A stretch of 64,000 nt of DNA from an uncultured Ignavibacteriota bacterium (GTDB lineage: Bacteria > Bacteroidota > Ignavibacteria > UBA10030 > UBA8401), in contig CAIOTF010000054.1 in the NCBI GenBank assembly GCA_903861125.1, positions 62,001 to 126,000 on the forward strand. Direction: 5' to 3'. A program made the position numbers and the translations under genes. Under the pieces are notes generated by a model, which made no database searches, was not told the DNA's origin, and saw only the letters and a program-made list of their open reading frames with translations. Positions 1 to 1,572 of the stretch are shown here, in pieces (position 1 is the first letter of the stretch; each line of letters begins with the position of its first letter).

Positions 1-240
1 GCCGTCGGGATAGATATCGGCGTCGGCATTCTTCACGATAAAGAAACCGGCAACAACTATCGTTAATGCAAAATGGATCATCGGGGGAAATATTGAAACG
101 TACCCCGCCAGCATCGATGCGCCGGCACACAGCGCGCAGGTAATAAGTCTCGCTTCCAGTTTCCGGAATTTGAGAGCGGCATAATAGAGAATTCCCTTCA
201 GCACCAGATCGATCAGCGGTATGAAGAGTTCGATCTTCAT
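1..240 (-). CDS. Truncated membrane protein (N-terminal part)
   Basis: This reading frame starts at an ATG at 240 and runs off the left edge after 80 codons, so only the N-terminus is visible. It is rich in hydrophobic residues and shows about two to three likely membrane segments (around residues 6-22, 35-50 and 54-68). Its ATG overlaps the stop codon of the upstream QueF-like gene as ATGA, which suggests translational coupling and perhaps a shared role. I do not recognise the family. A transporter or small integral membrane protein is possible. Confidence 0.6.
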   Translation of the reverse strand, partial: MKIELFIPLIDLVLKGILYYAALKFRKLEARLITCALCAGASMLAGYVSIFPPMIHFALTIVVAGFFIVKNADADIYPDG

Positions 241-650
241 TTTTTCCGGTGATATTCCGTTTCAACCGTTATTGCGATCCCGCCGCGGACAGCATATGCA
301 GCCGTCACTTTACAGCGGCGCGGCTTCAGCACCGCGACAAGATCATCAAGAATAACATTTACAACATGTTCGTAGAACGTCTCTTCGTTACGGAATGCTT
401 GGAGATATAATTTCAGTGATTTCGATTCGATAATGAAGGTATCAGGGACATATTCGATCTGTAGTGTAGCAAAATCGGGCTGACGGTTCACAGGACCAAG
501 CGTTGTGAATTCGTCTGTTGTGAGCGTAATAGTATAATTCCGCCCGGCATGATGATTCGGAAATATCTCCAGATTCTTCTGAGGTTCAGAATCCCTGCCA
601 AGAAGCGACAGAGATTGCAGATCTTTTTTTGATGTTCGTTTTTTTATCAT
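237..650 (-). CDS. QueF-like T-fold protein lacking the catalytic Cys and His
   Basis: The 137-residue protein resembles NADPH-dependent preQ0 reductase (QueF), which reduces the nitrile of 7-cyano-7-deazaguanine in queuosine synthesis. Conserved blocks are QPDFATL (57-63), ESKSLKLYL (75-83), FRN (86-88) and RGGI. Compared with my memory of B. subtilis QueF (C55, D62, H96, E97), Asp59 and Glu94 are kept, but the Cys position is Gly52 (codon GGT) and the His position is Tyr93 (TAC). It also lacks the C-terminal tail of the roughly 165-residue B. subtilis enzyme. The start at 650 is chosen because the family begins near it; upstream in-frame codons reach into the preceding gene. It is probably not a normal preQ0 reductase; the actual reaction is unknown. 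It is coupled by ATGA to a membrane protein gene. Confidence 0.8.
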   Translation of the reverse strand: MIKKRTSKKDLQSLSLLGRDSEPQKNLEIFPNHHAGRNYTITLTTDEFTTLGPVNRQPDFATLQIEYVPDTFIIESKSLKLYLQAFRNEETFYEHVVNVILDDLVAVLKPRRCKVTAAYAVRGGIAITVETEYHRKK

Positions 651-678: not shown

Positions 679-1572
679 TTAATGGATATTCTGCAATTTG
701 CTCGAAATAAGATAGTCGCGGAATTGACGTCGAACGGCAAGAACATCATTATGCGTCAATTCGGTATGGATGAAGATCAGACGGTTGTTTTTCAGGTCGT
801 TTAACGACAGATCTTTTTCTTCTTTGGCACAAAACGTTTTTCCCCATCCTTTCAGATCTGCCATCAGGCTTTCGGATTCATTCTTTGTTCCGCCGCTGTC
901 GGTGTAAATATTTACGAATCGGCCTTTATAGTTATCAATCCAATATGCAAATTTTTCCGTTTGTCCGTATAGCGCGTCAAACAGAATCACATCGGAAATA
1001 TTTTTTGTGACACCCCCGCGCATAAGAGCATACGATATCACACGGTACGCGCCACTGTGTCCGGCCAGAATAATCTTTCCCATATTCGTCGATCTGATTC
1101 TCTTCTTTTTTTTCAAAAACATCAAGACATCATTCACAAGATTTTTTAATCCACCGGTCTCTTCCACGCGTCCGCCGAATGAATCGGGGGAATCTTTCGG
1201 CCCTTCAGGAAAAACAAAGAGTGCGTTCTTTTTTGATTCGGCAAACTGTTCGATCAATTTGAATTGTGCACAGGCGCTGTCGAGATTATTGTACCATCCG
1301 TGGAAATAGACAACAATGTCAATATTTGCGGTTGGCTTGAATCCTTTTGGAATAAAAATAGCAACACTACTATCGGTGTAATGCTCTCGTGCGGAGAATG
1401 TCTGATTATTATAGAGCCTGCCTTGTGCGCGATCCGGATGCGGAAACGGAGAAGACGATAATTGCGGAACAAACATTTCCCCAAGATGTGAATACCGTTC
1501 GGTAAGCGGCTGGGCTGAAATGATGCGGTTGATCATAACACAAGCTGCGATAAGAATGAATGTTTTCTTCAT
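679..1572 (-). CDS. Secreted alpha/beta hydrolase (esterase-like)
   Basis: A 297-residue protein with an N-terminal signal peptide (MKKTFILIAAC... ending near ISAQ) and an alpha/beta hydrolase core. The nucleophile elbow GHSG sits in the string ILAGHSGAYR, an acidic residue follows in LFDALYG, and a late His is found in ELTHNDVL, giving a plausible Ser-Asp-His triad. The early YFHGWYNN string would form the oxyanion-hole region. A Shine-Dalgarno-like AAGGA lies just before the ATG at 1572. It is transcribed divergently from the small exported protein at 1681. The substrate cannot be read from the sequence; esterase or peptidase-like activity outside the cytoplasm is an inference. Confidence 0.7.
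   Translation of the reverse strand: MKKTFILIAACVMINRIISAQPLTERYSHLGEMFVPQLSSSPFPHPDRAQGRLYNNQTFSAREHYTDSSVAIFIPKGFKPTANIDIVVYFHGWYNNLDSACAQFKLIEQFAESKKNALFVFPEGPKDSPDSFGGRVEETGGLKNLVNDVLMFLKKKKRIRSTNMGKIILAGHSGAYRVISYALMRGGVTKNISDVILFDALYGQTEKFAYWIDNYKGRFVNIYTDSGGTKNESESLMADLKGWGKTFCAKEEKDLSLNDLKNNRLIFIHTELTHNDVLAVRRQFRDYLISSKLQNIH

Follow-up and report, generated by a model that had tools for sequence, protein, structure and literature searches.

QueF carries out what was, as of 2017, the only known biological reduction of a nitrile (PMC5372742). In the route set out in that account, preQ0 is bound, a cysteine attacks its nitrile to form a thioimide, hydride from NADPH gives an imine, and a second NADPH yields preQ1. 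The available text of the same work places the QueF active sites between subunits, supplies the B. subtilis residue numbers used below, and defines the QueF motif as E(S/L)K(S/A)hK(L/Y)(Y/F/W). Its survey of the family required Cys55, Asp62, Glu97 and the QueF motif, with sequences lacking any one of these being dropped; the cysteine was treated as defining QueF, and proteins without it were left out of the survey.

QueF-Like archaeosine synthase (PDB 5jyx and 5k0p) is a relative of QueF with the same fold and an altered chemistry. As described in the available text of PMC5485725, it keeps the cysteine (Cys21, conserved in QueF-L) and the thioimide, and uses ammonia in place of hydride. GTP cyclohydrolase I (FolE) has the T-fold in common with these enzymes and binds purines or pterins. 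QueF folds that lack the cysteine have been engineered: according to their PDB titles, Cys-to-Ala mutants bind preQ0 (4fgc) and preQ1 (3rzp). In the open-licence literature we found no account of a natural QueF clade that lacks the cysteine. Here we describe a member of such a clade, encoded at the start of a window from an uncultured Ignavibacteriota bacterium; the window is the whole stretch of DNA that was analysed, 64,000 nucleotides, and belongs to a genome of 4.19 Mb in 54 contigs (G000).

A QueF homologue with glycine at the cysteine position

The features discussed here are the following.

1..240, minus strand: membrane protein, 106 aa, running off the window; its membrane nature was read from hydrophobic stretches
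237..650, minus strand: Cys-less QueF homologue, 137 aa, predicted T-fold, from profile matches and a structure model
279..287, minus strand: Arg122-Gly-Gly, kept in all compared members
369..371, minus strand: Glu94 codon, the base-anchoring Glu (B. subtilis Glu97), kept
372..374, minus strand: Tyr93 codon, a variable column (Q/F/Y/H/N in Cys-type QueF) and non-diagnostic
381..383, minus strand: Glu90 codon; Gly in 63/63 relatives, Glu in 10/10 clade members
405..428, minus strand: QueF motif ESKSLKLY, residues 75-82, the NADPH-binding signature, kept (motif as defined in PMC5372742)
474..476, minus strand: Asp59 codon, the acid/base position (B. subtilis Asp62), kept
483..485, minus strand: Arg56 codon; Gly in 63/63 relatives, Arg in 10/10 clade members
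495..497, minus strand: Gly52 codon, where B. subtilis QueF has the thioimide Cys (Cys55)
679..1572, minus strand: upstream alpha/beta-hydrolase-like secreted protein, named by reading the sequence

The QueF-like reading frame runs from 650 to 237, with its ATG at 650..648 and its stop at 239..237. The longest in-frame version begins at 749, within the end of the upstream gene; we chose the start at 650 because most homologues have a Met at the same place. The 137-aa protein scored 109 bits against Pfam QueF (PF14489; cut-off 27.3) and 147.2 bits against the NCBIfam equivalog TIGR03139, 'preQ(1) synthase' (cut-off 86.9). These profile scores place it in the QueF family far above chance, and they bear out the relationship proposed in the first-pass annotation. 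Both collections report QueF, and neither gave a GTP cyclohydrolase match at E <= 0.1.

An AlphaFold2 monomer model, built on a 71-sequence alignment from which the very divergent rows L045 and L046 were omitted, had a mean pLDDT of 86.1 and the T-fold order strand-strand-helix-helix-strand-strand. Its nearest solved structures were those of B. subtilis QueF, 4fgc (C55A with preQ0) and 4f8b (thioimide), both at Z 19.1 with an rmsd of 1.3-1.5 over 117-118 residues, so that the protein is predicted to adopt the T-fold of unimodular QueF. Next came an E97Q mutant (Z 16.8), QueF-Like (Z 16.4, 19% identity) and GTP cyclohydrolase I (Z <= 15.6, 10-17% identity by structure).

With unimodular QueF (TIGR03139; PDB 4f8b, 4fgc and 5udg, from B. 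subtilis) the window protein has in common the T-fold, the QueF motif, the active-site Asp and Glu, and the RGG segment, with 43-46% identity over the domain; it differs in being without the catalytic Cys and in carrying Arg and Glu for the pocket-loop residues Gly56 and Gly90. Alignment with the B. subtilis enzyme pairs Gly52 with Cys55, Asp59 with Asp62, Glu94 with Glu97, and Tyr93 with the His preceding Glu97, in agreement with the first-pass annotation that the nucleophilic Cys had become Gly52 while Asp59 and Glu94 were kept. Because the survey rule requires Cys55, the protein is not a QueF by that rule, although the QueF motif is present and Asp59 and Glu94 are invariant in its clade. 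Gly52 likewise takes the place of the thioimide-forming Cys that marks QueF-Like, of which the clade is the reverse: the Cys is gone and the NADPH motif is kept. Whereas 4fgc and 3rzp are laboratory mutants, the clade protein is natural and also carries G56R and G90E. It is plainly a QueF descendant.

Distribution of the Gly type

Ten distinct proteins, spread over three genera of a single family, have Gly at the Cys position: those of the window genome and of six other species in the same genus (G001, G002 and G004-G007), of G010 and G018 in a second genus, and of G015 in a third. No queF was found in G003, which belongs to the window's genus and is 79% complete. When all 22 genomes of the family were scored, 10 had the Gly type (at least 236.9 bits), four a close Cys type (180-199 bits), one a distant Cys type (46.8 bits) and seven no queF. 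A PF14489 match was present in 58 of the 60 genomes searched (the window's and 59 relatives), in a number of them only of the weak, folE-like kind.

Wider sampling gave a similar picture. Among 211 matches in a phylum sample of 395 genomes, the window's own was the only one above 204 bits, and the 29 other loci read from these matches all encode Cys. A scan of 84,980 species with the patterns QK[KN]LE[VIL]FP and GP[VI]NRQPD returned 150 stretches, 10 of which encode a relative: nine from the Gly clade, in MAGs labelled Ignavibacteriae, Ignavibacteriales, Bacteroidota or Bacteroidetes, and one ordinary Cys-type QueF in a Nitrosospira MAG. The pattern scan and the phylum sample could both miss more divergent Cys-less QueFs. 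A very divergent Cys-type QueF lineage, remote in the tree, lies near queC in two genomes of the order (L045 in G040 and L046 in G009).

Sequencing or assembly error is ruled out, since the Gly trait recurs in nine relatives from separately deposited MAGs; with Gly52 in 10/10 distinct clade proteins, the first-pass annotation was right to discount a simple sequencing error. A phage or plasmid origin was rejected on identity, the best matches among 30 phage and 62 plasmid records being below 60%, and a scan of viral contigs with the two clade patterns gave 61 stretches with no relative among them.

The Gly type has a single origin and is under selection

In trees of 17 and of 73 rows the Gly type formed one group (support 100/99), and in the 73-row tree, rooted at its midpoint, it was nested among the Cys type. 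It lies near Cys-type proteins from its own family and from one other family in the class, with a weak sister fork (80/26); the trees rest on few columns and many other forks are unresolved.

The median dN/dS within the Gly type was 0.061, taken over the 15 of 45 pairs with a defined dS, and pN/pS was 0.171, compared with 0.164 in seven Cys-type sisters (21 pairs). Judged by these sequence measures, the Gly-type gene is under strong purifying selection, and the values argue that it is not a decaying gene. We therefore see very little likelihood that it is a relic, decaying after a switch to preQ1 import. Such a history would suit the failure to find a de novo pathway (below) and the existence of some relatives that yielded no queF, but it is at odds with a dN/dS of ~0.06 accompanied by much synonymous change, with a frame that is open in 10/10, and with the absence of relaxation at any column that Cys-type QueF conserves.

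Residue changes in the clade

We then compared the 10 Gly-type proteins with 63 Cys-type proteins, a non-random sample made up of 35 from relatives, 27 from the phylum search and the one from Nitrosospira; L045 and L046 were retained in these column counts and in the 73-row tree. Three columns were unanimous on both sides, C52G, G56R and G90E, and these were also the only columns altered in the clade out of the 27 with at least 95% conservation in the remaining rows. Kept among such columns are D59, E75, S78, K80, Y82, R87, E94, N98, D103 and R122-G-G. At two more columns the clade has a residue that is absent from the Cys-type proteins: Asn55, where they have T/S, and Thr91, where they have V, I, A, L or M. 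Ten control groups (nine families or parts of families and one combination, with 3-13 rows each) had no fixed change, one of them having a single mixed I/V column.

G56R and G90E sit in the same two loops as Gly52 and Tyr93, and had been overlooked in the first reading. That reading had instead taken His to Tyr93 as a second, independent catalytic loss, which the comparison does not uphold: the 63 Cys-type proteins have Q in 28, F in 15, Y in 12, H in 6 and N in 2, and a column so variable, with no conserved His, gives Tyr93 no weight. Of the Gly/Tyr pair that the first-pass annotation proposed to test as a clade trait, there remains Gly52, present in 10/10 and of single origin, while Tyr93 is ordinary.

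Queuosine pathway genes point to salvage

Full-length QueC was found in 0/10 Gly-type genomes; some of them have partial matches that pass the Pfam cut-off of 22 bits, the best reaching 29.6 bits over ~60 of 210 positions, but true QueC scores at least 200 bits and these were counted as absent. QueE, searched with one G012 protein named by reading, was found in 0/9 of the Gly-type genomes tested, beyond one 19.5-bit partial match. The window genome was also searched for a second complete queF, as had been suggested, and has none; its other PF14489 match, a weak one, is the genome's own folE by reading. PTPS is present as one copy in 8/9 Gly-type genomes tested, and in G000 it adjoins folE, outside any queuosine cluster. 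At that locus (L136:4368-6813, on contig C17) PTPS, FolE and two SDR-like genes lie in a row (SDR by reading), with the PTPS-FolE pair intact, and this row suggests a tetrahydropterin route apart from queuosine.

The later steps are better represented. Tgt was found in 8/10 Gly-type genomes, in pieces in G010, and QueA in 10/10, in pieces in two. The genomes with no Tgt match, G004 (rated 100% complete) and G007 (82%), both have QueA; the absence could be an assembly gap or a real loss, and it weakens the tie of the clade protein to queuosine. The Tgt of the window genome carries the segments DEC and GGLAVGE. In the Z. mobilis enzyme, Cys158 and Val233 are described as suiting preQ1 over queuine (PMC3660597, available text), and the two segments, matched by reading to this Cys and Val, make the window genome's Tgt preQ1-type. 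From its gene content, then, the window cell apparently requires preQ1, but no route of synthesis and no Cys-type QueF are seen in it. Since QueC, QueE and another QueF were not found while a preQ1-type Tgt and QueA are present, we infer salvage.

Relatives of the window genome show other arrangements. In G012, of the same family, queC, queE, queD and queF lie together (queE by reading), and this queF is Cys-type. Three genomes of another genus (G008, G016 and G021) have no full-length QueC; each has a Cys-type queF and a full-length YhhQ/Vut_1 gene, which overlap in G016 (L138:5046-6304) and directly adjoin in G008 (C323) and G021 (C29), an association that fits a compact preQ0 salvage pair. 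Further relatives, for example G011, G013 and G014, have Tgt and QueA with no queF found, which suggests that a cell can manage on imported preQ1 without QueF.

According to the available text of PMC11130926, queuosine precursors are transported by Vut_1/YhhQ proteins, whose specificities differ. A short divergent Vut_1 protein (172 aa and 53.4 bits in G000) was found in 9/10 Gly-type genomes, in 4/7 genomes of the family that yielded no queF, and in 0/5 with a Cys-type queF; a Fisher test on transporter type gave p 0.002, ignoring shared ancestry. By this correlation, the short protein is a candidate preQ1 importer. Such proteins, of ~170-180 aa, are encoded at L127:3854-4372 (G000:C18), L132:2972-3511 (G013) and L133:3125-3634 (G014), and by reading they adjoin isoprenoid-type genes in G000, G010 and G013.

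The setting of salvage bears on two accounts of the clade protein in which preQ0 or preQ1 remains its ligand. In the first, it would be a non-catalytic binder of salvaged preQ1 or preQ0 (a store, a sensor, or a means of delivery to Tgt) without redox chemistry. The Cys-to-Ala mutants crystallised with preQ0 and preQ1 (by PDB titles), the retained base-anchoring Glu94, genomes that look like salvagers with a preQ1-type Tgt, and the distribution of the short Vut_1 all agree with this. It is not evident why a pure binder would require the NADPH motif and the acid/base Asp, both of which are kept in 10/10, and the relatives with Tgt and QueA but no queF found manage without such a protein; on balance we think this account unlikely, although it deserves consideration.

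In the second, reduction of preQ0 to preQ1 would persist, either without a thioimide or by means of another nucleophile. In its favour, preQ1 seems to be required by the cell, whose genome yielded no other QueF; moreover, all strongly conserved residues except those of the Cys pocket are kept, and Cys113 is invariant in the Gly clade. This residue is present in all seven aligned Cys-type sisters too, and so is no new replacement nucleophile. The mechanism established for QueF runs through the thioimide, and the same Cys serves in QueF-L (as described in the available text of PMC5372742 and PMC5485725), and G011, G013 and G014 live with Tgt and QueA and no queF. We accordingly consider a Cys-free preQ0 reductase improbable, and agree with the first-pass annotation that normal thioimide-type preQ0 reduction is not to be expected, the loss of the Cys being fixed across the clade.

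Neighbouring genes

The stop codon of queF overlaps the membrane-protein gene as ATGA at 240..237. This overlap, from which the membrane protein had been proposed to transport the ligand of the QueF-like protein, is real; the proposal itself fares less well, for the membrane protein has no Pfam match at E <= 1 and adjoins queF in only 5/10 Gly-type genomes (G000, G001, G004, G005 and G007). Weaker homologues, with 24-33% identity, occur in ten other genomes, and nine of these, all but G010, have no Gly-type queF. The homologues show that the membrane protein belongs to a wider small family, and with its limited adjacency to queF it is probably outside the QueF system.

The alpha/beta-hydrolase-like gene at 679..1572 is a neighbour of queF within the genus, and does not evidently belong to the QueF system. 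A cupin gene, beside queF in 8/10 Gly-type genomes, is the only widely kept neighbour, and in most a phosphotransacetylase-like gene adjoins it (both named by reading); this looks like plain synteny, with the cupin apparently unrelated. Each of the 10 Gly-type genomes contributed one locus to an Rfam search, and no family reached its gathering score, which argues that no known (preQ1) riboswitch lies near the gene.

A proposed function

We tentatively propose, at somewhat less than an even chance, that the clade protein is a QueF repurposed after loss of preQ0 synthesis, and now acts as an NADPH-dependent reductase of a substrate that does not need a thiol. In one branch of one family, as the sequences show, the thioimide Cys was exchanged for Gly along with G56R and G90E in the pocket loops. 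The T-fold ring would be kept, presumably with base sites at the subunit interfaces, and a 7-deazaguanine-like base (or a pterin) and NADPH may still be bound. Without the Cys, capture of a nitrile would be lost, and hydride would instead pass to a substrate without need for thiol activation, for example to a C=N or C=O group. The preferred chemistry would resemble the last step of QueF, from imine to amine, since that final reduction presumably needs no Cys. Queuosine in Gly-type cells would then rest on imported preQ1 and not on the clade protein.

A reductase of this kind is favoured over a pure binder because the clade retains the NADPH motif, the base-anchoring Glu and the acid/base Asp, and has only a few altered residues, in the Cys loop and the loop before Glu94. 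The NADPH residues could instead have been kept for structural reasons. A more specific form of the proposal, which we hold slightly more loosely, is a new T-fold oxidoreductase, with NADPH as reductant, that acts on a C=N or C=O group of a 7-deazaguanine or a pterin, in a pocket rebuilt by Arg56 and Glu90.

T-fold enzymes bind pterins, and one NADPH-dependent C=N reduction that might be considered is that of a missing dihydrofolate reductase, for which the clade protein would substitute. The intact PTPS-FolE pair, followed by two SDR-like genes (by reading), would accord with such a role. DHFR itself is present at 149 bits or more in 8/9 Gly-type genomes tested, and at 30 bits in G015; the genomes that lack it are six other members of the order, all six of which have a Cys-type queF. 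We give this substitution hardly any credence, the presence of DHFR in Gly-type genomes speaking against it.

Implications

Because the window protein scores so far above the TIGR03139 cut-off, automatic annotation would call a Cys-less protein a working QueF, and probably assigns it the wrong job. Recognition of the clade corrects an annotation that misstates the route of Gly-type genomes to queuosine. A natural, selected branch without the Cys provides a direct way to ask what the QueF scaffold does without its nucleophile, and the clade may hold a new NADPH-dependent reaction.
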